Below are positions 4,802 through 63,995 of a stretch of 64,000 nucleotides of DNA, one piece after another. The DNA lies in the NCBI GenBank assembly GCA_911728435.2, contig OU452200.1:26799715-26863714 (forward strand), in the 5' to 3' direction. The notes beneath the pieces were generated by a model. It saw nothing but the letters and a program-made list of their open reading frames with translations, was not told where the DNA came from and did no database searches. This stretch comes from Apoderus coryli (lineage: Eukaryota > Arthropoda > Insecta > Coleoptera > Attelabidae). The stretch's first letter is position 1. Each line of letters opens with the position of its first letter. A program made the position numbers and the translations under genes.

Positions 4802-4869
4802 CTGCAAAAGTAAAAAAAATGTCATTAGCGTTATTGATTACCAAAACAGAATTATTCTAAGTAACTTAC

Positions 4870-4959
4870 AGTTGATACGAGAGTAAGGTTGACTCTAAAG
4901 ATCCCACAAGCCGTAAATTGAATATCATGTGCACATGTGACTGTGTGAAATATCAATAA
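4870..4959 (-). CDS. gustatory receptor GrA, exon 5 copy b (duplicated exon)
   Basis: This 90-nt phase-0 exon encodes the TM7 entry: LLIFHTVTCAHDIQFTACGI, then FRVNLTLVST. It carries the conserved Gr FTACG..x.N signature. It is bounded by TATTTTAG acceptor and ACT|GTAAGT donor. It is identical to the copy at 5078-5167, within an exact 208-bp tandem duplication. Since 90 is a multiple of 3, using either copy or both keeps the frame. Which copy is used cannot be told from sequence. Confidence 0.8.
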
Positions 4960-5077
4960 CTAAAATATAGATACATATATTTTTTATTTACAAATAAATT
5001 TAGTTTTTTTAATGTTAAAATGATTACGCTGTCAGTATAGTTTGCGTTGTGATTGAGAATTATTCTAAGTAACTTAC

Positions 5078-5167
5078 AGTTGATACGAGAGTAAGGTTGA
5101 CTCTAAAGATCCCACAAGCCGTAAATTGAATATCATGTGCACATGTGACTGTGTGAAATATCAATAA
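5078..5167 (-). CDS. gustatory receptor GrA, exon 5 copy a (duplicated exon)
   Basis: This is the upstream member of the duplicated penultimate exon, base-for-base identical to 4870-4959 and with the same intact splice sites. Both copies spliced together would give a receptor with 30 extra residues in the TM7 region, which would probably disrupt folding. Use of one copy per transcript seems likelier. Confidence 0.8.
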
Positions 5168-5654
5168 CTAAAATATAGATACATATATTTTTTATTTACA
5201 AATAAATTTAGTTTTTTTAATGTTAAAATGATTACGCTGTCAGTATAGTTTGCGTTGTGATTGACCCTAAAAATTATTCACAGAAATGAACTGTAATCAG
5301 CTTAATTTAAAGGCTTCATCGCAATTTCAAATGTAAACAAAGATATGAGAGTATGAGTTAAGATTATTGTTTCATGCTATTCAAAACGGCCGATAGGTCA
5401 TTTCCGATGCAATTGAAGTCTAACGAAACATCCAGCGGGGTTTATAGATGGATACAATATCAGTATTATACATACTACATACTATAGTTGAATTTGCTCT
5501 GGATAATTAAATTGGTGAATGGCTAAAGTAGGGTATAACCAAAATTCAATAATGTTTAATTATTACAATGTCTACCAAATCTAGTTTATATTCAAGCCGT
5601 TAATACTGGTATAATGGTTAAAACTGAATTGTAATTTACGTATGTAGTTGTAGG

Positions 5655-6300
5655 CTTGCAAGACGTTGAAACAAGACTTTTTATATTAGGAATTTGGCTC
5701 AAAAACTATACTTTCACCAGAAGGCTGTTTTGCCGATCAATAATAGGACTCATAAGTGGAGTTCAGTAAGTAGTGCTTATACCAAGTTAAAGTTAACTAC
5801 TGATGTTTAAAGAAAATAAATTATCTAATATTTGAACAGACAGTAGTGTTTGTGTAATATCCATTGTACAAAATTAGACAACAGCATGTTGCCACATTAT
5901 TATATACCTACTGATAGTTGGAGAATTGTCTGAACTTGTCAATTAAATGAATCGTTAGTTTGGTTAAGTACCAAAATAATTCTTGGCGGTTATGTAACTG
6001 TTATGCGCCATAATTTTATTAATATATCATTTTAGTACTTAGCCAAATTAAAAATTCATTCAAATGGCGGCTGCAGACAATTCGCTATCAGTAATCCAAT
6101 AATGTGGGCAACATGCTATTGAACATGAATTTTGGATTTTTTTTTTCTTTAAACAACTGCTAAATTTGTGCTGGTTTAAGCACTGCTGAGCTTATGAGTC
6201 GTATTAGCAGAACAGCTGTCTGGTGAAAATATACCTTTTGAGTCAACTTTTCAATATAAACACTCTTGTTTCAACTTATAGCAAGACTATAACAGTGGGC
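5655..6300. repeat. imperfect fold-back repeat with decayed hammerhead-like termini
   Basis: The left and right halves are inverted, diverged copies. For example GCATGTTGCCACATTATTAT near 5884 faces CCAATAATGTGGGCAACATG near 6094. At each outer end a sequence resembles the tandem hammerhead repeat elsewhere in the window: TTATGAGTC, then A.AACAGC, then TCTGGTGAAA.TATA (minus strand at about 5697-5765, plus strand at about 6190-6240). The catalytic core is lost. It lies in the GrA intron between exons 5 and 4. Confidence 0.45.
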
Positions 6301-12553: not shown

Positions 12554-12985
12554 ACTAAATATGAGTTAGTTATAAATAAATAACAAGGAAAAGCAAGCAA
12601 GCGGTATGAGACTATGTAAAACAAAGTTTAAGGTAACACACTTAAGCACAGCGATCCTCAGAATCACGAAAACCAAAGAAATCAGTGTGTAAATATTAAT
12701 TTAAATTTATGCGGTTGAAATTAAATGAAATTATAAACTTAAATTAATCGAATAGCCAAAACACATAAAAATTTCAATATCACAAAATGACAATCAAAGA
12801 AATCCAGAGACAATCTCAAATCAATCGAGGAAATTCAAATTGAAGCGATAGATTTTGAAAATGGCGATGAACTTCTCAAGAAGTTAAAAATTGGTAAATT
12901 TAAATTTATAGCGATGCCAGAATAAAATATAAATTTAAATTGAACCGTTAAATCAAAAAGCGTTAATCGCAAACAAGAGCATATA
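12554..12985 (-). other. BEL/Pao 5' leader, part adjoining gag
   Basis: This untranslated leader lies between the polyprotein start and the nested mariner. It continues at 15075-15355 beyond the mariner, giving about 713 bp of leader in the uninterrupted element. No open frame of note. Confidence 0.7.
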
Positions 12986-13325: not shown

Positions 13326-13554
13326 ACGACTGAAAACAACTACAATCATTTCTAAATTATTTACTTTGAAGAAAAACGGGATTTCAAAAACACTATCTTA
13401 TTTATCAGAACTAAATTCCTCACTAATCGTTTGCGTTTTTTGTTGAAATAAAAACTGCAGATACGTGTAGGAAAAGAATTTACACCGTTTATTTTAGTCT
13501 TTTCATTGATTCAGTTTGGTTGCTTCTCAAGTTATTTTACTTTTACCGTACAAA

Positions 13555-14628
13555 ATGATTTATTCCATTCTAGAACGAGTTGAAATTGTTAAACTTTATT
13601 TTCAAAATAATAGTAGTGCTAGACTTACGGCTCGCTTATTTAATGAGAGACATCCCGATAAAAATGTGAATGATGTGTACGTTGGCAAGTTAGTTAAAAA
13701 GTTTGTAGATACCGGATCTGTCTGTAATGTAAAACACCAGCCGCAGAAACCGATCAGAAATGAAGCTGTGGAAGTCGCTGTTTTAGGGCATGTTGAAATG
13801 GATCATAGTCAAAGTACCCGTCAACTAGCTGAAGCCTCAGGTGTCTCCCGTTCGTCCATAATACGAATTTTAAAAGCGTACAAATTTCATCCGTACAAAA
13901 TCAAATTAGTACAGGAACTAAATGAGGATGATCCTGATAGAAGGCTGCAATTTTGTGAAGCAATGAGCCAGCGTTTAATTGAAGATCCGCAATTATTATT
14001 TAACATTTGTTTTTCCGACGAATGCACATTTTATTTGAATGGAGCTGTAAATAGGCACAATTGCCGTTACTGGGATGACAGTAACCCACATTTATTCCGT
14101 GAGGTTCATACCCAGTATCCTCAAAAAATAAACGTCTGGTGTGGCATATTAGGAAATCATATTATAGGACCACTTTTTATTCCTGGAAATTTAACTGGTG
14201 AAGTGTACCTAAACATGCTTGAAGACACAATTGATCCTTTAATAACACAAATAATTGAAGATGACCAAAATCATACTGCTGATCGGCTTTATTTCCAGCA
14301 AGATGGAGCACCTCCGCACTATGTGGCTCCTGTAAGACAGTTCTTAGATGACCGGTTCCCTGGACGGTGGATTGGAAGGAGGGGCCCAATTGAATGGCCT
14401 GCCAGGTCACCGGATTTATCGCCTTTAGACTTTTTTCTTTGGGGGCACTTAAAAAATAAATGTTTTGCCACGAAGCCCGAGTCCATAGAAGATCTTCGCC
14501 AACGCATTACAGAAGAGTGCAGAAACATAACACCTGATATGCTACAAAATGTTAGAAATAGATTTGAACAAAATCTGTATTATTGTATGGAATCAAATGG
14601 GTCACATTTTCAACATTTGTTAATGTAA
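13555..14628 (+). CDS. mariner transposase, DD41D type, 357 aa
   Basis: The start at ATG 13555 (MIYSILERVEIVKLYFQNN) is preferred. The frame is open 39 nt further upstream but has no ATG there. An N-terminal pair of helix-turn-helix domains (about 1-120, including SRSSIIRILK) binds the TIRs. The catalytic triad lies in FSDECTF, YFQQDGAPPH and RSPDLSPLDFFLWG. Counting from the Asp of QQDG to the second Asp of SPDLSPLD gives 41 intervening residues, the signature of the rosa-like DD41D group. The frame is uninterrupted and the TIRs intact, so the copy may be autonomous. The family catalyses cut-and-paste at TA dinucleotides. Confidence 0.93.
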   Translation: MIYSILERVEIVKLYFQNNSSARLTARLFNERHPDKNVNDVYVGKLVKKFVDTGSVCNVKHQPQKPIRNEAVEVAVLGHVEMDHSQSTRQLAEASGVSRSSIIRILKAYKFHPYKIKLVQELNEDDPDRRLQFCEAMSQRLIEDPQLLFNICFSDECTFYLNGAVNRHNCRYWDDSNPHLFREVHTQYPQKINVWCGILGNHIIGPLFIPGNLTGEVYLNMLEDTIDPLITQIIEDDQNHTADRLYFQQDGAPPHYVAPVRQFLDDRFPGRWIGRRGPIEWPARSPDLSPLDFFLWGHLKNKCFATKPESIEDLRQRITEECRNITPDMLQNVRNRFEQNLYYCMESNGSHFQHLLM

Positions 14629-19198: not shown

Positions 19199-19321
19199 CT
19201 ACAAGTAATACATAAATTTACTGCAAAAATAAAATTATTATCGGGGTTTGTTACATAACTGCTTACATTATATTTTTTAATGAATTGCTTGTTACATAAC
19301 TTGTTACATTATCTAACAAGC

Positions 19322-19590
19322 AATTCATTAATAAAGCCTCCCGCCGGGGAATTCGGGCGTGTCTAGTGTTGGCAATAGGATATAATGGAGTTCTTGCTTC
19401 CCGTCCGGCCATCGTTTGTGAACTGTGTTTCACCGGGCATATTGCCTGCTCACACTAGATGTCGCCAAAAAGATCTTGTTGTCTTTTAACTCTCGTGCTG
19501 GTATAAACTCCTGGTAAATTGGGTCACACTGCCTGCCGATCACCAATGATGAGTTGTGGATCAACGAAACGTCCCGTCTGATGAAAGCAT
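19322..19590 (+). repeat. dispersed copy of the hammerhead tandem-repeat unit
   Basis: One partial unit of the 51.5-54.9 kb repeat. In order it shows AAAGCCTCCCGCC.GGGAATTC, the GTGTTGGCAATAGGAT block, CATCGTTTGTGAACTGTGTT, then the hammerhead segment. The core has one damaging change (ATGATGA where CTGATGA is expected, 19544). It is cut off after GAAAGCATGGT by the MITE at 19591. Confidence 0.75.
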
Positions 19591-19985
19591 GGTCAGAGAA
19601 CAACTAAGGGAGATAATATAATCTCTGTCTTGCCGCCTTTGATCTCATTCAGCCTGTGGCCGCCATGTTGAAAGAGTAGAAAACAGGGTCGTATTTAAAT
19701 TTTGTTGAAATAATCGTGCAGGTCGGTACTTAAGGTAATTGAGATGCTTACAGTGTGGATTGACTGCATGGAATACTTTAAGTAATGTCTGTAATTATAA
19801 TAGACAAATCTCCTAACCAGTGGGTTTGCTAATAATACTATGATAATCTTCAGCAAAAAATCTACTACGAATTAAAGAAATATTTTAAACTATAGCGGGG
19901 TTAGGCGTGTATATAATTCGGTACTGTTATTATCGGGATATTTTCCCTGCTATTGTAAGAACTCTTTGTATCTGTCATTTGTGAA
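19591..19985 (+). mobile_element. hAT-like MITE, one end
   Basis: It begins CAGAGAACAACTAAGGGA, the same end as the complete copy at 38142-38884, and follows that copy inverted for about 390 bp before similarity stops. The CAG.G start is hAT-like. The other end is missing. Confidence 0.55.
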
Positions 19986-25800: not shown

Positions 25801-25896
25801 ATTGCTCTTAAACTGTATTTGGATATAATATATATCTTTGCATGAAAATTTAAATATCGTATTGCAATAAAATTAGTAATAGGTGTAATAACTTAC

Positions 25897-26320
25897 CCAG
25901 TTTCTGATTTATATTTTTAAAGTGTCCAGTCATTACGAAGCAAATATAACCATACTGCAATTCATTCAGCGTTGCAGTAATATTATTATGTACATTTGAA
26001 AAAAATACTTGAATTGACTGCAATGTCATATTGCCTATACTGCGTAATATTGCGTATAGTTGTATTGGAGGAACTACAGCTAAAGCTATCACTAAGTAGC
26101 ATATCAAATAAACATAGTCCTCATTACTTGTACTTAATTTTGAGATTCCTCTTTCAACTAAGCATATTTTTCTTAGAATGTTTTGTAGATATTTTTTTAT
26201 TTGAAAGAGGTTTGTAACTCTTATTACTAATGATGTTATAGCCAGAAGCAGCTGGTTACCAGTGCGAATTAATACAGATTGTGTTACTACTACTTCTCCA
26301 GTGTTATTATCTTCAACATA
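25897..26320 (-). CDS. gustatory receptor GrA, exon 2
   Basis: This 424-nt exon begins after TTTTTAG with TAT GTT GAA (YVEDNNTGEVVVTQS) and ends CTG G|GTAAGT, leaving one base for the split Glu codon. The frame is open for all 141 codons. It encodes helices LLLAITSLVIRV and LICYLVIALAVVPPIQLYAI, then ELQYGYICFVMTGHFKNINQ. It is homologous throughout to GrB exon 2. Confidence 0.88.
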
Positions 26321-27120
26321 CTAAAAACAATATTCAGAAGTTAGATATTTCAGGATGCTTTGGGATAATTTTAAAATTTAACAGTTTTAAAACTTTTTAT
26401 TCACTTTAAAACTCCATAGCAATCAATTCTACCTAAAAAATTGATGATTTCATCTATAAATAATAGAGCATGGAAAATTTAGAGGCTTCAATAATGTCGA
26501 TAGAAAACGGTAGTCGGATTAAGCGGTCATTGTGGAATTTTCGAACGCTGATTCAAACGATAGATTTTATAAACCTTAAGATACATGGAATGTTCACTTC
26601 AATTATTTACGTATGGGAAAAGTTTTTCCCTGTGTAGGCGAAAATTTTAATATCTATTTATATAAACAAAAAGCAATTGGCTATGCTGCAAGGAATAATT
26701 GATCAATGTTCATCTTGTGTTATTGAATTCTCATTGGAATACCTTTATTTACAAACCTGTAATAGGCGTAAGGTTGCCCTTTTTGGAGCTGACTAATATC
26801 AAAAATCTAAATGAAATGAAATATTCTGTCACATTTTGAGTATATAAGGGACATTTGCATAGTTAATTCTCAATAATAAGGCCTATTTTTGAGGTAATAT
26901 ATAGACTAATCAGGTAACTGACAGGAACCTTGCTCCAAGATCTTCGAAATCCCCTAGAATCTAGAATACAGAACTGGTGGATTCACTAATCTCGCGAAAG
27001 TTTACAAAATGACAAATGGAGATTGCCACTACAAATGAAGATACAGTGGGTCAATCCATAATAAGTCAAGCCCAGTTTTTTTGATGAATCTTCATCTAAT
27101 TCAATTTTTTATTAAAATAA

Positions 27121-27290
27121 AGAACTCAATTTATTAAAGAATTGCTTGTTACATAAAGACTTTAAGTTATGTTGCAAATTTATTTCACACTACCATGCTT
27201 CCACCAGACGGCCGTTTCGTCGATCCACGACTCATCAGTGGTGACCGGCATCACACATCTCTCTCTCAATCAATTTATTAACTTTTGTAT
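27121..27290 (-). repeat. solo hammerhead-repeat fragment in GrA intron 1
   Basis: A minus-strand partial unit of the tandem repeat (TTGCTTGTTACATAAA, then AAGTTATGTTG, then the ribozyme). An internal deletion joins the region left of stem I directly to the TC-rich part. Confidence 0.75.
27171..27260 (-). ncRNA. hammerhead ribozyme, intact core
   Basis: The minus strand gives CACCA-CTGATGA-GTCG-TGGAT-CGAC-GAAAC-GGCC-GTC, then TGGTG. Stem I proximal 5 bp, stem II 4 bp and stem III AC/GT are all paired, with C17 before the predicted cut. The distal part of stem I is disrupted by the deletion. Confidence 0.75.
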
Positions 27291-27442
27291 TTTTTTATGT
27301 TTCGCATCGCCTTAAACTTATGTCCGTTCCTATTCCGAAATTCTTACTCTGTAGTAAACTCCTTATAAGTAAGTATTATTATTAATAAAAATAATGAAAT
27401 TAAGTTTTCTTAACCTTAGCTAATTATTTTAAATTCACTTAC

Positions 27443-27703
27443 ATGAAAAAAATCATACATAGTTCTCGGAATTATGATAAGAGTATACAAATTTATTGTG
27501 ATTAATAATATTTGAAATAAAATCAAATACTTATTTAATTTAATGCTTTTGTTTTCCTCAACTTTCAGAAATGGACTGAGGCCACAAAAACCCGATGCAC
27601 GTAGAATGATAGAAAAATTATCATAAACAGTTGTTTTTGAAACTTCTTTAAATAAAAAATCCACATTTTTGTTTTCTGCCGCAAGTATCTTGCTCACATT
27701 CAT
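27443..27703 (-). CDS. gustatory receptor GrA, exon 1
   Basis: The N-terminal exon ends MYDFFH|GTAAGT. It encodes MNVSKILAAENKN, a loop, and TM1 (KYLILFQILLITINLYTLII). Start 27703 is chosen because similarity to GrB begins close to that Met. An in-frame ATG at 27763 would add 20 residues. No promoter element could be recognised. Confidence 0.8.
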
Positions 27704-28839
27704 GTTGTCACTTAAATGCGTGACTTGTGTAACTATAAGAGGATAAGTAAAAGAAAATGTCATTAGTTGAGGAAGTCATAGACATATCATTTCAATTTGT
27801 GTTTGTATTATACCTACCTAGTATTAGTTTTGAAACCAAATATAGTTATTATCTAGTCAAAGGTTTTGGGAACGTTGGGTTACGTGTAGAAATTAAAGGT
27901 TTTTTCGCACACCCTAGATTGATACATACTCTAAACACATAGATATGTAAAGTTTATTTCACAAACTTTCATTACGTCATTGTTGAAAAAGTTATCTTGA
28001 AATTTTCGAAATTGTGCAGAAACACTAAAATTGAGAATGTCTGCTGCAGTATCGTGTGCAAGATGCAAGGTTTCCTGACAGCCGTTTTATACAATGACAT
28101 TATTCAGAAGTTGAGTTACTTATCCTCACCAGCTTTCATATTAGATTTAATTCATTGTATACATTACGTACAAAGTTAGTAGAAAATAACAAAATATAAT
28201 GGTGTAGAATGAAAATAGATTTTTTCTACAACTGTCATAAAAGAGTGACATTTTTTCACCACTTTTTTGACAAATGATATTTCGCAAATCCGGTGTGCAA
28301 AGTATTTTCTTTAACAGGATATAAGTACGTAGAATTCAATTTTATTGTAGGTGCTAATAGTATATGAAAAACATAAATTGATTAAAACATTCTTTATTAT
28401 TAGTATTAATATGATACGCCTTTGTTTTATTAGTAATGCCGCCATAGAAAAAATGACAAAGCCATGAAAAATGACTTACTTGCTCCTTATATTATTAGCG
28501 GTATAAAACGATATTATAATATAACTAATGTTTTTCGAATGGTTTTCTGACATAAATATTTATGGCAACTAGCGAGCCAATTTAAAATATATCAAATACA
28601 AATTATTTAAAACCTTCCGCAAAGAACTGTCCATTGCAATTTGTTTCATCCTATGGGTAAGAATGTGATGATTCTCCAAACCAAGAAGTGGAATGATTGT
28701 TCAGTTACACAAAATTTAGACGATATATTTATACACACACATGTCACATTAGCGCAGCTGAGCTGAGTTGTACGACCCCGTATATTAGATGGCTTTACTT
28801 TTATTTTTGTTATAATTTATGAAAAAAATAAGTTTTTTC

Positions 28840-35619: not shown

Positions 35620-37043
35620 TAATAATAATAATAATATAATATTTATTTACCGAGGAAAAAAAAAGAATTACAATTATTACAATGAATATCATAAATACTA
35701 GGTAAACAAATACAGAGAGGTAATTACATATTTATTGTTAACACATAGTACTTCATTTCAATTAAGCTCCAAATAGCGCTTGTCTTTGAAATGGAAATAC
35801 AGCACTCTTGAAAATTAAGTATATCACTTACTGAACAATATAAATACCTACAAAATAATAATTTATTGGCATTTTAATGTAAATATAAAACAGAAAAGAT
35901 GAAATAAACTGAAAAACCATAAGTAAGAACAAAAAACGAATTCCAAATAACATTAACCCTTAAACCTAAAAATCAAAATCAAAAGCAAGTCAGAAAGATA
36001 ATAAATATTTCTTCATCTTATTACTTTGACTACATTCTCAATTAACCATTTATGTACCTTTTTCTTAAAATTAGTTTGAAACAAGATTTGTTTTAAATCG
36101 TCTGGAAGCATATTATACAGTTTTGGTGTCACATATAGCAGTGAGCGTTGACCTAAAGTTTTTTTCATTCGTGGAATATTTAAGTTGCAATGAGCTAATT
36201 TTCTTGTTGCGTATGAGTGGCCTACAGTTTGAAAAGTTATCTTTTTTTTAGAAAAATGAAGAAGACAGTTTTTATAAAATAGTTTGCGGGGATTCAGAAT
36301 ATAGAACTCAGTAAAAAGTATATCACTGGGATAAGTTTGAGGGAGGTTGTACATAATTTTTATTATTTTTTTCTGCATTATTTGAAGTGGATTCATAGTT
36401 GTCGAATAAGCTCCACCCAAGCAATTATTCCGTAATTCAGCAGACTATGAACTAGAGCAAAGTATGTTTGTCGTAATTGGGTTATTGACAAAATACATTT
36501 TAGTTTCTTAAACATATAGGACAGGGATCTTAATTTTTTAGTAAGAGAGTCAATCTGAATATTCCATCGTAGACAGCAATCTATGTCAATACCCAAATAC
36601 CTAGTATGTACTGTTTTCTTTATGGTCCAGTTTAGACGTCTATTTGGCAAATAAATATCAATATTATCCAAAGTCTGAAGGCTTAACTTGCTCGTGGAGA
36701 AAGGTAAATATTTTGTCTTCTCCAAGTTGATTGTCAATAAGTTGTTATCTAGCCAGCAGACCATTTGTCTTATATCTGAGGTAATGTTATTTTTCATTTC
36801 TCCCCAGGTCTCGCCTTGGCAAAGTAAAACAGTGTCGTCAGCATATGATATAATTTTTCCATGCGAATTTAAATTAAGGAATTCATTTATATATAATATG
36901 AATAGGATCGGACCAAGAACGGTTCCTTGAGGAACACCATATGTTACCTCAAGTTTCGAACTCACAACTCCATTAATTTCCACACTTTGGGATCTTTCTG
37001 ATAAATAGCTTTTCATGAGTTTATTAAGAATAGCTACTTTCAT
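35620..37043 (-). mobile_element. 5'-truncated non-LTR retrotransposon inside piggyBac relic
   Basis: The minus-strand RT fragment begins within the palm ([19 protein letters not shown], then catalytic YADDTVLL). It ends in an (AAT)n-type tail at 35620-35645. The insertion splits the piggyBac frame between MALTDA and NGYIYG. Confidence 0.85.
36013..37043 (-). pseudogene. non-LTR reverse transcriptase, C-terminal two thirds, one frameshift
   Basis: Frame 1 (37043-36393) carries [10 protein letters not shown], the YADD active site (near 36838), the thumb ([17 protein letters not shown]) and LLNYGIIAW. Frame 2 (36420-36013) continues after a shift near 36405-36420 with [20 protein letters not shown] and a basic C-terminus ending in TAA. 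Only one break is seen, so the copy is young. The endonuclease and RT N-terminus are missing. Confidence 0.85.
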
Positions 37044-38141
37044 AACGGCTACATATATGGTAAGGGTTCAGATAGAAATACACTTTCCGATGAGGAAAGA
37101 AAACTAAGTATTGGGTATCGCAGAGCCGCTCCAAGAGATGGTAATGTGGCTCAAGAAGTAGAACGTTCTAAGAAAAAGAGATACCACTTCTGCCCATCAG
37201 GAAAAGACAGAAAGACACAAAGCATAGACATGTGTTTATACAATATAAGGAAATGATTTTTGACGACTAGTTAGGACCAGTTTTTGTTTTTAGCAATTTA
37301 TATTTCTAAAGTTGTTTTATTATTTTGCCAAACATATTATAATGTATGTTTTTTTTTGTATGGATGATTACATTATCATATACCTAAATAAAACTATATG
37401 TGGGTCCCAGGGACCCATGGTCCGTAAATATGGATATTTAACGCATCTCCGTGTATAAGGGTTAAAAAATTTACCATTTTGAAAATGATAATCGCCCTGT
37501 TCCGTTACTTTACGGACATCCTACAATATGAGAACGATATTATAAGGGAAAAGATAAAGAAATATAATATTATGTCAGATTTAGTTTTTGTTATATATAC
37601 TCACGTATGCATTCTTCTAAAAAGAGAGCTTTGACAACAATAAATTGAATATTATGAGGTATTTTAAAATCACTACAAAATATTTAAAAAGAATTCGTTC
37701 TGTAGCATATAGAAAACCTATCCTATTACCTATCCTACAGTGAGTATTGTGCATTTGAGAAAAGGCATCTTTTCCAGAAAAATCTGAAAGTATATCTATG
37801 GGATTAAAGATCACCTTTCGGTACAGGCTGCTTTTAATTTTGTAGACACGTCACATTGTTTTGATAACAATGTAGTTTTGGTTTACGTTTAAAATTCAAC
37901 ATAGAGGTTTCAAACACTGTTTTATTGGTACTTAAAATTCAATTTAACTAAAGTAAAACTAATGTATGTAGTTGAAGATTATACTATTGGACTTTACTAG
38001 TGGGTCGTGAGAGTAGTTTGAACTGGATCTCGGTCTCGCTTATGGTCTCGATTTCAATTTCTTGTCTCGGTCTCTACAATTTTTCGCGTAAATCATCCAC
38101 GGATCCACAGACTGGTGTGGCAGGTATACTCATATATAAGG

Positions 38142-44972: not shown

Positions 44973-46026
44973 CATTAATATTAAGATAAAAACTATTTAG
45001 CAACTTTAAACAACATATTATCTAGAATATGGACAATTCTCTTCTGTCGATTTCTTTAATGCATCTCTTAAATGCCCAAGCAGAAAACTACTGGTAACAA
45101 CAAAACGCCAACCTAGCGTGACCATAAATATATTTTAAAATTACCTTCTCTGTCAGTCATAAAATCTAAGCAAATCTGTATCTCGTAAACCAATTTAGCA
45201 TTAACAGCAAACGAAATAATAATGAAGAAATCTGTTCAATGAGACTCTAGACCATTAACACAGTAAAGCTCTTCTGTTTGGCTAAGTTATCAAATACCAG
45301 GTCCTTTCGATTATTTAGTTGCATGTGAATGCGGAAAATAATGATGAAGGGCTTTGTAATCTTCAATAATATTTTCTTCCATCTTATCCTTAAAAATATT
45401 GCAATAATCGTTACAATAATGATTTAACTCTTTTATGACGAACTGAAGCGGCTAATCAACTTTGTATTGTCCATCGCTTTTCCCCTCACAGTAGGAAGAG
45501 AATCATCCGAATCTTGTTCTTCACACAATTTTGTCGTTGTGGTTTCTTGCTCCCAAAACATAAACATCCCAAATGTTTCCTAAATTCAAATTTGTAAAAA
45601 ATCGTAATAGAATGTTATTCACTAACGATGTTTTTCCCGTCAAACCCAACCAAGACGCTCGTGAGAAAAAATTAGTAGCGAAATTTATTCAACAAAGTTA
45701 TCCATAATAATTTAGGTAGAGTGATTGAACATAGTAGAGACATGTCTAATATATGTATGTGATAGCAGACAATGAAATTCCGTTCTCACTTTTAGCATCT
45801 TCCTCAGAAGATAATTGAAACTTAACTTGTAATTTGTAGTAATTCATACTTACTACTTATAATTATGATATACCTATAATAGCTGTTAGATAATAAAGTG
45901 AATTCAATTAATCTCATTTAATAAAATATTTTAGTTTAATTAACTCAACGTGAATTTTATATTTTACTATGGATATAACTAGGCTTTATACTTTAAAATT
46001 AGTGCTTGTTAGGTGGAATGACTTAC

Positions 46027-46444
46027 CCATTCTCTGATTTATATTTTTAAAGTATCCACTCATGACAAAGCATAGGTAACCATACTGCAATTCAGCCACA
46101 GTTGCAGTTACATTATTATATAAATTCGAAAAAAACACGTTAATTGACTGCCAGGATGCATTGCCGTTATTGAATATTATTGTGTATAATTGTATTGGAG
46201 GAACTACAGCTAAAGCTATTACTATGTATAATATCAAATAAATAGAGTCCTCATTGTTTAACTTTGAAATTTCCTTCTCAACTATGCTTATTTTTTTAAG
46301 AATTTTTTGAAGATTGTTTTTTATTTGAAATAGGTTTGCAAATCTTATTACTATAGGTGGTATGGCTAGAAGCAAATGGTTACCAGTGCCAATTAATGTC
46401 GATTGTGTCGCTACTACTTCTCCAGTTTTACCACCTTCAACATA
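46027..46444 (-). CDS. gustatory receptor GrB, exon 2
   Basis: 418 nt, starting after TTTTTAG with YVEGGKTGEVVATQSTLIGT and ending ATG G|GTAAGT (phase 1). Helices LLLAIPPIVIRFANLF and LILYIVIALAVVPPIQLY, then ELQYGYLCFVMSGYFKNINQ. Homologous to GrA exon 2, with two codons deleted. Confidence 0.88.
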
Positions 46445-46716
46445 CTAAAAACAATATTCACAAGTTAGATATTTCATTAAACTGCTAATTTATATTGGAT
46501 CCTCAGAACAAGGGAGAATATTCAATTCTAACAGTTTGAAATTTTTTATTTACTTTAAAACTTGAGATACATAGCAACTTTCTCTAACAAAAAATGGATG
46601 CGTTCATGTATGAAGTATAAAGAACAAAAAAGTATAAAATAATATTCAATGAATTTGTGTTCGTAAATATAATAAATGTATATCTCGTTGTGCTTAAATG
46701 CAGGCCGATATTGTAG

Positions 46717-46790
46717 ATGGGCAACGACTATGGTACTCTGATGAGCTCAGAATAAGAGCGAAACGAATTCGTCAGTATCTGCCGACCCAT
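46717..46790 (+). ncRNA. complete type I hammerhead ribozyme (third family)
   Basis: Core CTGATGA (46738-46744) and GAAA (46760-46763). Stem I GGTACT/AGTATC (46732-46737 with 46774-46779, one G-U), with a distal helix ATGGG/CCCAT (46717-46721 with 46786-46790). Stem II GCTC/GAGC with loop AGAATAA. Stem III ACG/CGT with loop AATT, the whole ACGAATTCGT being palindromic. C17 is at 46773, so cleavage is predicted after it. Every conserved core base is present. It lies in GrB intron 1, antisense to the gene. Confidence 0.85.
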
Positions 46791-47479
46791 GCCTCGGTCT
46801 GGTTCTACTGAATTAGACTGAGGCTCTGCTAAATTAAACAAAATCCCTTGTGTAGGTAACACCAATAATTTTGTCCGCTATGCCACGAAATTATGTTCGC
46901 TTAAAATAATATCGTTAGAGAAAAGTAAATAAACTAATCATTGGAATATTTTTTAACGCTGTAAATACTCAAACTACACATTTTTATGACGTTTGCATAT
47001 TTAATGCTAAATGACAAAATATTTTTTTAAGTACTGATATGTAAATCACGGGGTTTCTGAACAGAATCATGAAGATTCACTAATCCCACGATTTTTTACA
47101 AAATGGAGACTGCCACCACAAAAGAGGGTCCTTTAAATCAATTCCACGATAAAATATGTCTTACAATTTTTCTTCTAAAGTTTTGTAATCATTTATAAGT
47201 TATACAAGAAATCCCTTGCGGGATTTCCCAGTCGTCTTGTGGTAGTCTTACCTATGACAAAAGTCATTGAGGGTTGAAAAAAAAAATCTGAAAGTGTTTC
47301 TATCTATGACAACCTACCGTACCTAAAAATATTGAAAATAAATAGAAACATCTTTGAGTTACCCCGTAGATCACCTCTAGGAGCTTATAGTTTAACTTTC
47401 AAAGAAATCTTGAATTGAAATCTAAAGAAATCAAAAAATTATGCAAAATATTACTTTTTTCTACTTAACAAAATAAAGA

Positions 47480-47710
47480 AATACATTTTTGAATATCTTT
47501 CTATTTTGAAATTCGTTGGTTTAACCAGATCTTAAAATAACGTTAACGTTAATAGTGGTGGATGTTATTTTTTAGAACTACCATATCTCTCTATTTTGAG
47601 ATTCGTTGGCTGCAGTTATTATTCTACCATATCTCTCTAATTTGAAATTCGTTGGTTGCAGTTATGATTCTACCATATCTCTCTATTTTGAAATTCGTTG
47701 GTTTGTCATA
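47480..47710. repeat. minisatellite, about 55-bp unit
   Basis: Direct copies of CTACCATATCTCTCTATTTTGA.ATTCGTTGG.TGCAGTTAT.ATT recur about three times, with a partial copy upstream near 47495. Confidence 0.75.
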
Positions 47711-48574
47711 ATTTGGAAATATTTTTTTCTAACGTTGGTGTCACTTATTTTACTAATAAATTGCTTGACAGTTACCTTTTGTGTGCTTTACCTGTCACAG
47801 TTATATGACATTTGGAATAGTGATATTTATAAAAGGAACGTAGTATATGTGGAGTGAGTCATATTTTTATAGATTAATACTTTTTCAATAGAATTTACGA
47901 ATGGGTACGTAATCCTTTCATACGACTGTGACTAAAAATATACGAAATTGCTTGTCCCATATGTTTTGCTAAGAATATAATCATGAAAATGGGTTTAAAA
48001 AAAATCGACAAATTCCAATATAGTTACAACTCTAGTTTCACGTCATAATTTGGTTTTGGTAATATGTTTTTACTAACACGACAGACAAATTGCTTGGGTC
48101 AAATATTTTATTATTATTTTCTTTGTTTACATTAATAGGCTAAAAGTTTTCGGCATTATTTTCATGTTTAAGATCAATTTCTATCAACATGTTGTATATT
48201 GTAGTGTTATAAAATGCTTATTCCATATAGTTGTAGTAAATTTAGAAGTTTCATTGTGTATTTGAAGTAATATTACGGAAAAAGTGTTAATAACCTAAAG
48301 TGACAGTGTCATGAGAGCCGTCAGATGAATGTGGTCATATGTTTCTCAATAACATAAGTCAGATGGATGGGAAATAGTTGATATCTCCCTCTGCGTCGCA
48401 CCCAAAATGACCTTTTGTAGATGTAATTAAATTAATTAATAAAATACTGTGGCCGCATTAAATCCCCTTGAAACGTACCTGTTGGGATGCAGCAAAAAAC
48501 AAATTTTCTATATAGACAGACCTGCGGCTGCACCTTCGGTACAGCTTTAAGTTAAGTCACATAGATAGCGGTCA

Positions 48575-48682
48575 GTTTTTTGCAGATTTTCGACGACAAA
48601 GACAGCACTATCAGATTTTATAAGGATTTTTTTGCAGATTTCGACGACAAAGACAGCACTATCAGATGTCATAAGGATTAAT
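48575..48682. repeat. direct tandem duplication, about 52 bp
   Basis: TTTTTTGCAGATTTTCGACG, then ACAAAGACAGCACTATCAGA, then T...ATAAGGATT occurs twice in direct succession with a few differences. Confidence 0.8.
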
Positions 48683-48962
48683 AACTATAACTTATATATT
48701 TGTAACAATGACTTTTCAAATTTTCAAATAAAGAACTCATTAAATCCCTCAACTTTTGTACATTTGATATTTTTCGCCTCGTCCTACACTTATGAAAGTA
48801 TCAAATTTTTCATCTATTACCCTGTTGTAAATCCTTATAAATAATAATTGTCTTTCTAACTAATTGTTGATTTGATCAACATATCTTTCAAATGATTATT
48901 ATTAATAAAAATAATATAATTAAGTTTTCATAATTTTTGCTAATTATTTTAAATTTACTTAC

Positions 48963-49229
48963 ATGGAAATAATTATACATCGCCCCAGGAATTATGGTAA
49001 GAATATACAAATTCATTGCAATTAATAGTATTTGAAATAAAATCAAATATTTATTTAACATGATTTTTTTGTTTTCCTCAACTTTAAGAAATGGAGTTAT
49101 GCCACAAAGAACGGACGCACGTAGTATGAGAGTAAAATTATCATAAACAGATTTTTTTGAGACATCCTTAAACAAAAAATTGGCATTTTTATTTTCTGCC
49201 ATAGATACTCGTACCTTACTCACAATCAT
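48963..49229 (-). CDS. gustatory receptor GrB, exon 1
   Basis: The N-terminal exon ends MYNYFH|GTAAGT. It encodes MIVSKVRVSMAENKNANF and TM1 (KYLILFQILLIAMNLYILTI). An upstream in-frame ATG at 49247 would add six residues. Start chosen by alignment to GrA. Confidence 0.8.
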
Positions 49230-49688
49230 GTTGTCTTTTAAATGCATAGATATATTACGTAAGTGTAAGAGAATAAGTAAAAGAAAATATTATCAAACCA
49301 TTAGTGAGGGCGTCATAGACATATCATTTCTATTTGTTTTTTAATATACGATCAGTGTTGGAACCAAATATAGTCTTGCACAGTTCCTGTAAATATTTTG
49401 TGTAAACCAAAGATTGATGCAAATTGTAAAAAACTAGATTTGCCTAATAGTGTCAAACTTTAATTACATATTATTATTATTAGTCTATACAATGGAACGT
49501 CAAAATTTAACGAGTCCAATATAAAAAAAGAAGATAGCAAAATATTTAATAAAATGTATGAATAACAATAATAACAATTACAATTTAAAGCTTCTATATT
49601 TGTTAATACCTTTGTTATTGCCTGGAATACACTATTTAGTGGTTGAATAATTGTTTATCTTCACTAGACTTTATATCATATTTAATTA

Positions 49689-50638
49689 CACCGTGCTAGT
49701 CAAAAGTCCGCGCCCCTTGTATCTTTTGAACGTATATATTTAAAATAATTAAATTTGAGGGTGAAAATAAACGGATGTATGCTTCTCCACTAGTCGCCAC
49801 AGATGACTAAATGGTCATAAATGACAATACAAGGCCACTGTGATTAAAATTTTTAAATGAGACCTTATGGCAAGTGATATCTTATCTCGATTGAAAGGTA
49901 TTGCAAATCCCTCGGAAAATACCTATTCAGCCATACTATTTTTTTGAGTTTAGGCTGATTTTGATGGATAACTTAAATTAAGTTTTAAAATTATGTTTCG
50001 CATTTAAATAATAAGGCCTCTGGTTATTTGTTAAAAAGGTTGACGTTTTTTATTTCTGACATTGACACAATAACACGATTTTTCAAAAGTGTTTATACCT
50101 TGAATATTTACTCAAGTTATTCTTTCACGAGACGGTTAAATATTCAGGGCAAAATGGCTCTTACTGTAGCCGACAAACTAGCAGCTGTCTTAATAATTGG
50201 TGAATGTAGAAACAATTTCCATGCAGCGGGACGTCTTTTTAATGAGATCGCTCTATTTCAAGAACCCATTTGAGGGAGCTTTAAGGAAGTTTGAAGCAAC
50301 CGGTAGTGTTTAAGATGCCACACGTCAGGTCGACCAACAATAAGCTATGAAAACAAAATTGACATCATTGCAAAAATGAGAGTAAGCCCTCTACATTTTC
50401 TACAAATTAATTTTAATTAATCCATCAAAAAAATAGAATGACTGAATAGATTTTTTTTAATACCTTTCAAACCAATTTTGCTCACGGTGGCCCCGTATCG
50501 CATCTATGATTATAACGTCATTTGTTACAACCAGTTGAGAAGCCTACATCCGTTTATATTCACCCTCCACATTTAATTATTTTAATATAACCGTTCCACC
50601 AAAGATACTAGGGGAAAAGGTACTTTTGACTAGCACTG
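49689..50638 (+). mobile_element. internally deleted mariner element
   Basis: TA-flanked inverted ends: left CACCGTGCTAGTCAAAAGT, right ACTTTTGACTAGCACTG, extending with gaps to about 100 bp. From ATG 50154 the transposase N-terminus reads MALTVADKLAAVLIIGECRN, then FHAAGRLFNE, then shifts and stops. The catalytic domain is deleted. Confidence 0.8.
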
Positions 50639-51591
50639 TATAATGAACACATTATAAAATTGGTAACAAATAACAAAATATTTGTTGAAGTAGAAACATA
50701 TATTATCTATATGGCATTATTAACCAAATATTTTATACATGCCAACGCAATAATGCTCATCACGATCTGGTACATGTTTCATACCAATTATTTTTGTACC
50801 ATAGCGTTGTGTCCGCTTGATACGCCTATGATTTTATTAGTAATGTGAAGATACAAAAAATTACAATGCTTTGAAAAATTACTACATAATGTTTATATTA
50901 TTAGCGTTATAAAAGAATATGATTTAACTGATGTTTTTCGTACGTGCTTTTGACATAAATATATTATGGAAACTAGAGAATCAATTTAAAATATATTAAA
51001 TCCAAATTATATGTATGGGATTTATAAGTTTCCTAACAGATTCCTAAATTCTCTGAACAACTGACGTTTCTAATTTGTTTTAAGTATCGTTTCTTTTAGT
51101 TATTATAATTTTAGCATAATTGAAAACTTGCGTAGGTCAGCCTATTGGAAAGATTTGGTTGACTTCTCAGACGAAGTAAAGGAATGACAAAGATAATACA
51201 AATAAAGGTTTCCGTTGTTTTACTAAAGACTATATAAACCGCAACTTTAAAGTAGCTGATTTATATGATCGTTGCCGTTGTACTATTAAATACGTTTGTA
51301 AGATTTACCAATTCTACAATTCAGTTCACATTAATTCCATTAACTGAATCATGTTCCAATTCCACCATCTATGAAAGACTATGGTAAATTCTGGAGAAGT
51401 AGAATTCGGTTAGGTATGAATATTTAGGAATTTCTAAGGTCGTTGAAAAAATACAATCCCAAAAGACGAAGTTACCTGCCTTTTCCCTTCCTTAAGAGAA
51501 ATAATAGAAAATCCCTTAAAAAACGTTAAATAAAATACAAGTGAACATCTTGTGGTCTTTCATGTCTCGTGCTGGTATACGCTCTTCGTAA

Positions 51592-51703
51592 CTGTTGAAA
51601 ATTTGGGTCACACTGCCTGCCGATCAACACTAATGAGTTGTGGATCAACGAAACGGCTCGTCTGGTGAATGCATGGTGGTGTGAACCAAATTTCCAACAT
51701 AAC
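51592..51703 (+). ncRNA. hammerhead ribozyme copy 1, degenerate
   Basis: Core reads CTAATGA (G5 to A), which should abolish activity. Stem II GTTG/CAAC is intact, and GAAAC is kept. Confidence 0.65.
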
Positions 51704-51780
51704 TAAAAGTCTTGTTGCTTTATGTAACAAGCAAGTCACAAATAAAGCCTCCCGTCAGGGAATTCAGGCGCATCTAGTGT

Positions 51781-51890
51781 TGGAAATTTGGATCATACTG
51801 CCTGCCGATCAACACTGATGAGTTGTGAATCAATGAAATGGCCCATCAGGTGAATGCATGGCTGTGTGAATCAAATTTCCAATATAATTA
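51781..51890 (+). ncRNA. hammerhead ribozyme copy 2
   Basis: CTGATGA at 51815 is intact. Stem II GTTG/CAAT keeps pairing through a G-U. GAAAT replaces GAAAC, which weakens the two-base stem III. Confidence 0.65.
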
Positions 51891-52080
51891 AAAATCTTGT
51901 TGCTTTATGTAACAAGCAACTGACAAATAAATCCTCCCGCCAGGGAATTCGGGCGCATCTAGTGTTGGCAATAGTATATAATGGAGTTGTTGCTTCTCGT
52001 CCGGCCATCGTTTGTGAACTGTGTTTCTCCGGGAATATTGCCTGCTCACTCACGTGCCAGTATAAGATCTTCGTATATGT

Positions 52081-52188
52081 TGGAAATTTGGGTCACACTG
52101 CCTGCCGATCACCACTGATGAGTTGTGGATCAACGAAATGGCTCGGCGGGTGAAAGCATGGTAGTGTGAAACAAATTCCTAACATAAC
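52081..52188 (+). ncRNA. hammerhead ribozyme copy 3
   Basis: CTGATGA at 52115 and stem II GTTG/CAAC are intact. GAAAT replaces GAAAC. The expected GTC before the cut has become TCG, so activity is doubtful. Confidence 0.6.
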
Positions 52189-52380
52189 TAAAAGTCTTTT
52201 TACTTTATGTAACAAGCAATTCATAAATAAAGCCTCCCGCCAGGGCATTCGGGCGCATCTAGTGTTGGCAATAGGATTTTTTGGAGTTGTAAGCTTCTTG
52301 TCAGGCCATCGTTTGTGAACTGTGTTTCTCCGGGAATATTGCCTGCTCACTCACGTGCTAGTATAATATCTTCGTAAATG

Positions 52381-52488
52381 TTGGAAATTTGGGTCACACT
52401 GCCTGCCGTTCACCACTGATGAGTTGTTGTGGATCAACGAACCGGCCCGTCTGGTGAATGCATGGTGGTGTGAACCAAATTTCCAACA
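52381..52488 (+). ncRNA. hammerhead ribozyme copy 4, degenerate
   Basis: CTGATGA at 52416 is kept, but stem II has a 3-nt insertion and GAAAC is changed to GAACC. Confidence 0.6.
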
Positions 52489-52809
52489 TAACTAAAAGTC
52501 GTGTTGCTTTATGAAACAAGGGGTTCACAGATAAACATTTATTCCAGAAAGTAATTCAATGACATGCAAGATTTTAAAGTTTTTCTTCTTAAAAGGTGGA
52601 CTATTTTTATTTTGGAAATATAATTTATTTTCTACTATTTTATTTTGAGAAATAAACTATAATATTCAGAGAATAGACAAGAATAAACTTATAATCACTC
52701 ACTTGTTCTTGACCATCATTTATCTTATAATAATATGTAGAACGATTTATAATTACGAAAATTTGCTACAGATTGTTTGGCGATCTAAGTATATACTATT
52801 TCAATTATG

Positions 52810-53284: not shown

Positions 53285-53430
53285 AAAACAATTATATATA
53301 GGTACGTTCAATTCAAAGAATTGGCTTTTCATTTTCTTGTCAGACATGTTTCGTGACATGACGGTCTCATCAGTGACACTTTATACATAAGTCATCTTTC
53401 TGGACATGTAGAAGGAATGTAAACATTTAG
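53285..53430 (-). mobile_element. Penelope-like terminal fragment with hammerhead core
   Basis: The minus strand reads TGTCA-CTGATGA, then GAAACATGTC-TGACA. Stem I TGTCA/TGACA pairs perfectly, and the palindromic ACATGT stem III is the same as in the 62.2-kb copy. Stem II pairs only weakly (GAC/GTC offset), so activity is uncertain. It lies just outside hammerhead array 2. Confidence 0.6.
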
Positions 53431-53439
53431 ATATTCTAA

Positions 53440-53890
53440 GAATTCGCTTGTTACATAAAGCAACAAGACTTTAAGTTATGTTGGAAATTTGTTTCACACT
53501 ACCATGCTTTCACCAGACGGCCGTTTCGTCGATCCACGGCTCATTAGAGGTGATCGGCAGACAGTGTGACCCAAATTTCCAACATTTACAAAGAGCTTAT
53601 ACTAGCACGAGAATTGATTGAGAGAGAGAGAGAGATGTTTTTGGCGACATCTAGCGTGAACAGGCAATATGCCGGGTGAAACACAGTTCACAAACGATGG
53701 CCTAACAAGAAGTAACAACTCCATTATATCCTATTGCGAACCCTAGATGCGCCCGAATCCCCTAGCAGGGAGGCTTTATTTAAGAATTTCTTGTTACATA
53801 AACCAACAAGACTTTAAGTTATGTTGGAAATTTGTTTCATACTAGGTACCATGCTTTCACCAGACGGTTGTTTCATCGATCCACGACTCA
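53440..53890 (-). repeat. hammerhead tandem-repeat array 2, inverted arm
   Basis: About 1.3 units on the minus strand. The first ribozyme (core 53541-53547) reads CTAATGA. The second is broken at its core by the head-to-head junction at about 53890. Same blocks as the plus-strand arm. Confidence 0.88.
53475..53582 (-). ncRNA. hammerhead ribozyme copy 5 (inverted)
   Basis: GAAAC, the GGCC loop, GTC and the whole extended stem I are retained. A single core change (CTAATGA) should inactivate it. Confidence 0.65.
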
Positions 53891-53967
53891 TGTTCTGTTC
53901 ACTCTAGATGTCGCCAAAAACACCTCTCTCTCAATCAATTCTCGTGCTAGTATGAGCTCTTTGTAAA

Positions 53968-54072
53968 TGTTGGAAATTTGGGTCACACTGCCTGCCGATC
54001 ACCACTGATGAGTCGTGGATCGACGAAACGGCCGTCTGGTGAAAGCATGGTAGTGTGAAACAAATTTCCAAG
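53968..54072 (+). ncRNA. hammerhead ribozyme copy 7, intact
   Basis: Core CTGATGA at 54005-54011, stem II GTCG/CGAC (loop TGGAT), GAAA at 54025-54028, stem III AC/GT with loop GGCC, C17 at 54036. Stem I 5' to 3': TGTTGGAAATTTG, CACACT, TGC and CACCA pair with TGGTG, GCA, AGTGTG and CAAATTTCCAA.A respectively, separated by small internal loops (one outer mismatch in this copy). All core bases are consensus. Confidence 0.9.
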
Positions 54073-54306
54073 ATAACTTAAAGTCTTGTTGCTTTATGTA
54101 ACAAGCAATTCTTAAATAAAGCCTCCCGCCAGGGAATTCGGGTGCATTTAGTGTTGGCAATAGGATTTTTTGGAGTTGTAAGCGTCTTGTCCGGCCATCG
54201 TTTGTGAACTGTGTTTCACCCGGCATATTGCCTGTTCACGCTAGATGTCGCCAAAAACATCTCTCTCTCTCAATCAATTCTCGTGCTAGTATAAGCTCTT
54301 TGTAAA

Positions 54307-54412
54307 TGTTGGAAATTTGGGTCACACTGCCTGCCGATCACCACTGATGAGTCGTGAATCGACGAAACGGTCGTCTGGTGAAAGCATGGTAGTGTGAAAC
54401 AAATTTCCAACA
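54307..54412 (+). ncRNA. hammerhead ribozyme copy 8, intact
   Basis: Core 54344-54350, stem II GTCG/CGAC (loop TGAAT), stem III loop GGTC, predicted cut after 54375. The complete extended stem I includes the perfect outer 13-bp helix TGTTGGAAATTTG/CAAATTTCCAACA. Confidence 0.9.
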
Positions 54413-54657
54413 TAACTTAAAGTCTTCTTGATTTATGTAACAAGCAATTCTTAAATAAAGCCTCCCTGCTAGGGGATTCGGGCGCATCTAGTGTTGGCAA
54501 TAGGATATAATGGAGTTGTTACTTCTTGTCCGGCCATCGTTTGTGAACTGTTTTTCAACCGGCATATTGCCTGTTCACGCTAGATGTCGCCAAAAACATC
54601 TCTCTCTCTCTCTCTCTCTCTCAATCAATTCTCGTGCTAGTATAAGCTCTTTGTAAA

Positions 54658-54763
54658 TGTTGGAAATTTGGGTCACACTGACTGCCGATCACCACTGATG
54701 AGCCGTGGATCGACGAAACGGCCGTCTGGTGAAAGCATGGTAGTGTGAAACAAATTTCCAACA
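54658..54763 (+). ncRNA. hammerhead ribozyme copy 9, near intact
   Basis: Core 54695-54701 is consensus. Stem II GCCG/CGAC has one C-A mismatch. Stem III and the long stem I, including the outer 13-bp helix, are kept. Predicted cut after 54726. Confidence 0.85.
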
Positions 54764-55056
54764 TAACTTAAAGTCTTGTTGCTTTATGTAACAAGCAATT
54801 CTTAAATAAAGTCTCCCTGCTAGAGGATTCGGGCGCATCTAGTGTTGGCAATAGGATATAATGGAGTGGTATCATGGTTGGCGGTAACCGTTACATAAAT
54901 TTCCTGGTACAATCGTAAAAGGTTTTTGTATATTGAGATTTAAGTAATTTTGTGATTAAGTATCTTTGACATGAGTGTTCTAGCTTAAACGAAAATGAGA
55001 ATAATTAAACTAAAACAACATAGTAATTTACAAATATATTTTTAAACAATTACATA

Positions 55057-63229: not shown

Positions 63230-63995
63230 TCCAAACAAAACAAACATATAACTATCGTCAGCTCAGAAATTATGCAAAATCGTCTGTTAAAAGAGAAAAA
63301 GCCGATATCTGAAATACCTAAATCAACAAAATAATGCGTCAGGATTCTATAAAGCTCTTAAAACATTAAACATACAAATAAACAAAGTGAATCCTTCAAT
63401 ACCCTCTCATCTATCTGATCCTTCCCATATAAACAACTTTTTTGCTTCTGTTTTTCAGAATAGTGACACCAAATGTGCTGAAAATATAAGTTTCTACAAC
63501 TCAAATTTGCTTAATCCAAATCACAACTTCAAATTGCATCAAACATATACGGAGAATGTTTTGAAGATAGTGCGGAGTATTTCTTCAACCGCTTCCGGGA
63601 TCGATGGTATTAACCTGTACATGATAAAATTATGTCTTCCAGCTATAGCAGACTTCATAAAACACATAGTAAATTGCTGTATAGAGCAGGGATATTTCCC
63701 AACTGCATGGAAGGAAGCTTTGGTTGTTCCTCTGCCGAAAGTTCCTAATCCGCAGGAAAACAATGACTTGCGCGCTATAAGCTTATTTCCCGCGATCTCC
63801 AAGATATTAAAAAAGACGGTTCATGACCAGATTTACGAATACTTATGTTTTAAGAATTTGCTACCCGAGCATCAATCCGGATTTCGAAAGGGTCATAGTA
63901 CTACCACTTTGTTGATGAATCTTACTGACAATGTTGTTCGTGCCTACGATCGAGGTTTGTCCACAATTTTGGTGCTGCTGGACTTCAGCCTTTGA
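63230..63995 (+). pseudogene. non-LTR reverse transcriptase, N-terminal part, cut by window edge
   Basis: The frame 63387-63995 reads INNFFASVF, then TASGIDGINLYMIKLCLPAI, WKEALVVPLPKVPNPQENND, RAISLFPAISKILKKTVHDQ, and LLPEHQSGFRKGHSTTTLLM with LLDFS. These are RT blocks 0-3 of a Jockey/CR1-like element (G.DG, W..A.V.P..K, R.IS, Q.GF..G.ST, DFSKAFD). Right after DFS the frame is lost (expected Lys-Ala-Phe-Asp), so it is damaged. The earlier part (ASGFYKALK near 63340) is in the same frame but preceded by stops. Confidence 0.85.

Follow-up and report, generated by a model that had tools for sequence, protein, structure and literature searches.

Which kind of element built the array of hammerhead-bearing repeats found in this window (the whole stretch of DNA analyzed, 64 kb), and by which route were the copies of its family inserted? 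The initial annotation had proposed a retrozyme-like tandem array, and the evidence set out below extends from that array to its inverted partner, to further copies in the window, and to the way in which these copies end. Altogether, we consider the family to be probably an animal non-LTR retrozyme, a mobile element that is non-autonomous and consists of RNA-only units, moved by the route proposed further below.

The array and its three hammerheads

Tandem Repeats Finder (TRF) delimits on the forward strand a tandem array with a period of 339, 2.8 copies, and 93% matches, and a search by cmscan with RF00163 (Hammerhead_1) matched a type I hammerhead at three places within it (Table 1), which bears out the tandem array of hammerhead units described in the initial annotation. 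The RF00163 scores of all three lie slightly below the gathering score of 34, and a default scan lists none of them. The predicted cuts follow GTC (54036, 54375, and 54726), and both these positions and the unit lengths of 339 and 351 nt had been given correctly; with 2.8 units, the array comprises two cut-to-cut monomers instead of the three previously claimed. A consensus hammerhead had also been attributed to each unit, which is true of hammerheads 1 and 2, whereas hammerhead 3 carries one C.A mismatch in stem II (GCCG/CGAC). Due to this mismatch, hammerhead 3 fails the strict descriptor, and the predicted release of the 351-nt unit is thus less sure.

The array hammerheads are not produced by chance. 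The 32-nt core, allowing up to three mismatches, occurs five times in the 64-kb window and never in 100 shuffles, and the strict type I descriptor, which demands that all three stems be paired and was drawn up after the copies had been seen, is satisfied at four places in the window, whereas 60 random 64-kb sequences with its dinucleotide composition gave one. Stem I contains an internal loop, and loop 2 measures 5 nt (UGGAU); a contact between loop 1 and loop 2 is a feature of canonical type I hammerheads.

Units of 339 and 351 bp in the array, and of 186 to 303 bp in array C (see below), fall in the range of 150 to 450 bp set for retrozymes, and the GC content of three monomers is 0.43, 0.43, and 0.44, compared to less than 45% in the definition of animal non-LTR retrozymes. 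No LTR was seen by eye. The absence of an open frame, also noted at first, agrees with the longest stop-free runs in the two circularized monomers, which reach 61 codons on the forward strand and 78 on the reverse strand; moreover, no closed stop-to-stop frame of at least 110 aa overlaps 53432-54871.

A dispersed repeat unrelated to the array carries a strict type I hammerhead too, at 46733-46778 (+) in the window, with a further copy at L004:9012-9237. Its two copies are 87% alike over 226 columns, the L004 copy keeping stem II by way of a G-U pair, and a 35-codon frame recognized by eye (ADIVDG...VWFY) crosses the window copy.

Copies of the family and folding of the unit

Insertion B (53432-54871), delineated by blastn and the covariance model R1, is larger than the array, which forms part of it, and its outer part is inverted. 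Read on the reverse strand, the sense part of insertion B runs from 53891 to 53432, and the array stands before it in inverted orientation. Three units of insertion B are 93 to 96% alike. Four further family copies lie in the window, at 51.6 to 52.5, 27.1, 19.3, and 5.7 kb. One hammerhead of array C has GAAC for GAAA and another has GGC for GTC, copy A has a perfect hammerhead core at 27207-27238, and the one hammerhead of copy D is located in its inverted piece. Candidate hammerheads on the other strand (R1 15 bits, E 0.055; 13 bits, E 0.24) were discarded as reflections of the palindromic stem. By eye, 53343-53373 (-), ~60 bp past the 3' end of B, resembles a hammerhead in which stem III is self-complementary (ACATGT) and stem II is broken.

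Table 1. Features of the hammerhead family, with positions counted along the window
Feature	Position	Strand	Basis and remarks
Tandem array, 2.8 retrozyme-like units	53895..54871	+	TRF; cuts by pattern, descriptor, and alignment
Monomers in the array	54037-54375 (339 nt); 54376-54726 (351 nt)	+	Cut-to-cut
Type I hammerhead 1	53999..54042	+	Cut after 54036; RF00163 33.8 bits, E 2.7e-5; strict descriptor satisfied
Type I hammerhead 2	54338..54381	+	Cut after 54375; RF00163 31.7 bits, E 1.4e-4; strict descriptor satisfied
Type I hammerhead 3	54689..54732	+	Cut after 54726; RF00163 26.7 bits, E 6.1e-3; strict descriptor failed
Strict descriptor places	46733 (in the unrelated repeat), 54000, 54339	+	
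Strict descriptor place	27243	-	
Unit nt 49-84 past the cut	54085..54120	+	Small hairpin CTTGTT...AACAAG, then AATTCTTAAATAAA; dispersed copies have their sense 3' ends here
Sense part of insertion B, opposite to the array	53432..53891	-	blastn; starts at 53891, inside a hammerhead
Hammerhead in the sense part of B, altered core CTAATGA	53516-53547	-	Pattern; R1 match 53491-53570, 99.7 bits
Array C	51565..52545	+	Four hammerheads; units of 186, 300, and 303 bp
Array C, R1 matches	51607-51687, 51792-51872, 52092-52172, 52393-52476	+	Covariance model R1
Copy A	27126..27281	-	Single hammerhead; 132-bp insert 27138-27269
Copy D	19273..19593	.	Sense 3' end on - (19299-19273, 27 bp) joined to inverted piece on + (19300-19593)
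Copy E, decayed	5670..5775	-	~70% identical; R1 18.2 bits; ends not placeable
Paralogous stretch without the element	48726..48760	-	Counterpart of the flanks of copy A, receptor-like gene duplication

The source assembly comprises 428 Mb in 129 contigs, from which we sampled 16 loci amounting to 159 kb (80 kb from eight places on four large contigs and 79 kb beside the window). At E 1e-3, these 159 kb held no family copy except a 41-nt match of 80% in L008, and the window seems locally rich in such copies. The exact hammerhead core had no match in viral contigs and none in prokaryote contigs, as expected for an animal element. Within the window, unit B1 has a diagnostic stretch, TTTTTTGGAGTTGTAAGC, in common with C3 of array C and not with its own neighbors B2 and Bm, which suggests either a template switch from one RNA to another or conversion of one array by the other. 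Conversion between arrays, as well as the clustering of copies in the window and their absence from the sampled 159 kb save for the one 41-nt relic, would suit plain satellite DNA, in which the hammerhead would be a passenger and the arrays would expand and spread through unequal crossing-over and gene conversion. However, the B1-C3 mosaic could equally be obtained by template switching between different RNAs. A satellite, which we regard as improbable, is at odds with dispersed single copies that have a preferred 3' end and show inverted 5' pieces and direct repeats, and with the paralogue from which the element is missing.

The monomer adopts a rod-like fold (linear z -4.0). Folded as circles, two array monomers gave z scores of -4.9 and -4.0 and one monomer of array C gave -3.0, while the reverse complements of the same three scored -2.8, -2.9, and -1.6, perhaps as a consequence of the palindromic rod. 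With this rod-like self-pairing added to the type I hammerhead, the tandem units of 300 to 350 nt, the GC content of 43%, and the lack of a frame, the retrozyme reading of the initial annotation stands on these points, and such sequence features make it very probable that the family belongs to the retrozymes.

The covariance model R1 and the pair counts are drawn from eight hammerheads, copies A, D, and E having been dropped from the 11 aligned as truncated or decayed. Over these eight, pairing is found in 98% of cells for the 13 distal pairs of helix I, 90% for its six proximal pairs, 94% for stem II, and 92% for stem III. The one compensatory change in stem II (C-G in 4/8, U-A in 4/8) marks a single subfamily split, and covariation did not clearly exceed that of shuffles, with two double-change pairs compared to a mean of 1.4 (204 of 500 shuffles reach 2) and 26 of 500 for the covariation score.

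At the ribozyme itself, the predicted fold of lowest energy differs from the hammerhead. All eight copies folded preferred a competing hairpin, which pairs the 5' strand of stem II with stem III and thereby breaks stem II (in copy 1, -37.7 versus -29.0 kcal/mol for the hammerhead, with a stem II probability of at most 0.16), in a program that cannot score the tertiary contacts of hammerheads. The competing hairpin is 95% paired across copies, without compensatory change. It gives a hint only, since the prediction also falls short of the full native structure for two control hammerheads of another family (46733 and the L004 copy), in which stem II is kept.

The preference for the competing hairpin, together with the stem II mismatch of hammerhead 3, the altered core in the minus-strand copy of B, and the GAAC and GGC variants of array C, might also mean that the copies are old relics of a genuine retrozyme family that are past cleaving. 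This reading is compatible with our explanation of the family, and we hold it to be rather unlikely; against it, the strict descriptor is satisfied by the hammerheads whose cores lie at 54005, 54344, and 27238. The copies have drifted, as seen in the units of insertion B, and many may therefore be dead.

Other repeats and frames were observed in the window: on the reverse strand, an open frame of 1,712 codons (7427-12565) that by eye resembles the gag-pol polyprotein of an LTR retrotransposon; on the forward strand, a transposase-like frame of 372 codons (13510-14628) with matches to DUF4817 and weak matches to a Tc3-type helix-turn-helix; and an exact 208-bp tandem duplication (4848-5264, 100% matches), which is either very recent or an assembly artifact.

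Insertion anatomy and the proposed route

The retrozyme kind is already known in animals, and what is new here is the insertion anatomy. Like the inverted partner and the further copies, it was absent from the initial annotation, and it constitutes the most informative part of the locus. With the base that follows the cut numbered 1, the sense 3' end lies on the unit at nt 84 in copy A, 82 in B, 83 in D (a 27-bp match), and 69 in C according to blastn, with which local alignment agrees; in a looser multiple alignment, the end of C is likewise at nt 84 (GTCACAAATAAAG versus TTCACAGATAAAC), by likeness to array C's own internal units. Counted over these four copies, the decayed copy E being left out, the chance of four ends within a 7-nt span is at most 3.5e-5, or ~4e-4 if C ends at 69 (16-nt span), for n = 4 in one window and copies that are perhaps not fully independent. 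The seven internal junctions continue beyond this end point into CTCCC (GCCTCCC in five, GTCTCCC and TCCTCCC in one each). In unit B1, the hairpin preceding the 3' end occupies nt 49 to 69; it is mutated in B2, where other small hairpins are predicted.

An inverted 5' piece is present in three of the four placeable copies (A, B, and D) and absent from C, with sizes of 18 bp (A), 294 bp (D), and 977 bp (B). The piece of copy A (27258-27275) is partly simple repeat, has a blastn E value of 0.004, and shares 6 bp with the direct repeat. Measured from the outer end of the inverted piece to where the sense piece begins, the gap is 53 nt in A, 43 nt in D, and ~170 nt in B. The gaps in A and D are such as twin priming would leave, while in B the narrow gap typical of classical twin priming is missing.

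Copy A is flanked by 12-bp direct repeats, TTAATAAATTGA, at 27270-27281 and 27126-27137, but as little as 4 bp of this may be true duplication because TTAATAAA of the repeat resembles the element's own end (AATAAA). For animal non-LTR retrozymes, target duplications exceed 4 bp when present, to be compared with the 12 bp of copy A, maybe in part the element's end; inspection based on blastn revealed none for B, C, and D. A paralogous stretch lacking the element matches the upstream flank of copy A at 72.6% over 95 columns (blastn) and its downstream flank over 13 nt (by eye). It is not an exact preinsertion site, since the 12 nt between the flanks differ from the direct repeat. This stretch comes from a diverged segmental duplication (25868-28606 and 45994-51010, 72 to 79%) with receptor-like frames; one such frame seen by eye at 25850-26320 (-) has no relatives at E 1e-3. 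Another repeat (19596-19982 and 38882-38502, 82%) starts at most 3 bp from the outer edge of copy D.

The preferred 3' end, the inverted 5' pieces, the direct repeats, and the paralogue without the element argue for target-primed reverse transcription from within the RNA, a route of insertion that, judged from these sequences, appears reasonably likely. We propose a model in which the following steps are inferred to succeed one another: (i) the array would be transcribed; (ii) its type I hammerheads would cut the RNA into monomers of ~340 to 350 nt; (iii) the host tRNA ligase (RtcB) would close the monomers into rod-shaped circles; (iv) circular or multimeric RNA would be copied at a nicked AT-rich target by a reverse transcriptase borrowed from an autonomous helper element; (v) priming would take place inside the unit, directly after the small hairpin ~80 nt past the hammerhead cut; and (vi) the second target strand would often be primed also, leaving the inverted 5' piece.

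A long inverted repeat, TGTTGGAAATTTG...CAAATTTCCAACA, is present in the unit and could be taken for the terminal repeats of a non-autonomous DNA transposon of the MITE or Helitron type. We rejected this highly improbable reading, as the repeat is internal: it forms the distal part of hammerhead helix I inside the tandem unit, and by eye no inverted repeat stands at the ends of copy A.

Within the retrozyme explanation, and not outside it, the identity of the reverse transcriptase divides the field. An ordinary LINE-type enzyme acting by classical twin priming on an RNA with a real 3' end near nt 84, instead of a Penelope-like one, would also explain much of the insertion anatomy, including the twin-priming-like inversions with gaps of 53 and 43 nt in A and D. 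Moreover, the window contains RVT_1 frames at 36393-37067 (-), with 54.3 bits, and at 63291-63995 (+), with 26.7 bits, the latter below cut-off. Against a LINE stand the missing small gap in B and a 3' end that falls within the unit instead of at the ribozyme cut or behind a poly(A) tail. A tail common to the unit and the LINE at 36 kb was considered and rejected as well, unit nt 21 to 110 having no significant likeness to that LINE (best match 27 nt, 81%, E 1.5). We regard a LINE-type enzyme as a possible mobilizer whose chances fall somewhat short of even.

Comparison with known systems

The anatomy, the expression, and the ligation by RtcB on which our retrozyme reading is modeled are those of the animal non-LTR retrozymes described by Cervera and de la Pena in 2020 (PMC7229834), which, according to the portions of that paper available to us, make abundant small circular RNAs. 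The family has in common with them the type I hammerhead, the low GC content, the lack of a frame, and a highly self-paired monomer, with tandem units of 170 to 400 nt there compared to 339/351 and 186 to 303 nt here (PMC7229834). Stem III of invertebrate retrozymes consists of two pairs and a tetraloop (PMC7229834), and the 339-nt array can be read in this way (A-U, C-G, and a loop of four). In contrast, the fold prediction places the ribozyme in a competing hairpin here, which is described as not usual for animal circles (PMC7229834). For the preferred 3' end and the 5' inversions, we found no counterpart in the available portions of PMC7229834, whose main text, to the same extent, devotes one sentence to insects and leaves Lepidoptera unmentioned; in the open-licence literature, searched by title and start of the abstract, no papers on retrozymes in Lepidoptera were found.

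Two other hammerhead repeats are more distant. The pDo500 satellite of Dolichopoda cave crickets is also an insect tandem repeat with a hammerhead, likened here by description and not by sequence, and is presented as satellite DNA (PMC2837043, in part). Plant LTR retrozymes likewise are hammerhead repeats yielding circles (PMC4918200), yet, as far as the excerpted sources go, they have a type III hammerhead and LTRs, whereas our family has type I and no LTR was seen (PMC4918200, PMC7229834).

For the enzyme that moves animal retrozymes, LINEs or Penelope-like elements are suggested as the source in the excerpts of PMC7229834 and PMC7761336. Poseidon of Anolis, a Penelope-like element with a minimal hammerhead, is cut 26 bp into its frame; in vitro, its RNA is reverse-transcribed from an internal start at 111 to 118 of the frame on AT-rich targets, both target strands are cut and extended, and insertion in vitro does not need hammerhead cleavage (PMC11167929, in the parts available). 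By subtraction, Poseidon thus starts 85 to 92 nt past the cut (PMC11167929), compared to 82 to 84 in three copies and 69 or 84 in the fourth here. Tandem copies, a type I hammerhead, an AT-rich target, and insertion ends within the RNA are common to both (PMC11167929). Our family differs in being frameless, without reverse transcriptase or GIY-YIG domain, and in its fuller hammerhead, and has a T-rich hairpin followed by AATAAA where the start site of Poseidon is an AC-rich stem-loop (PMC11167929).

This likeness is a resemblance drawn from four copies and not proof. By analogy, two-strand extension as in Poseidon could be the source of the inverted pieces, and a Penelope-like helper may tentatively be envisaged, though we would not back it at even chances. 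The fullest reading combines a retrozyme moved by Penelope-like machinery that starts ~80 nt past the cut, priming on both target strands, and a two-state switch of the ribozyme, in which the hammerhead would be active during transcription and the rod would be closed once circular; taken as a whole, it is unlikely. If it were true, the preferred 3' end and the inverted 5' pieces would be the long-missing fingerprint of the animal retrozyme mobilizer. With readable 3' ends, inverted 5' pieces, and a paralogue without the element, sequence data can settle the question of the mobilizer, and the key comparison is that of insertion ends, relative to the ribozyme cut, with the start site of the resident reverse transcriptase.
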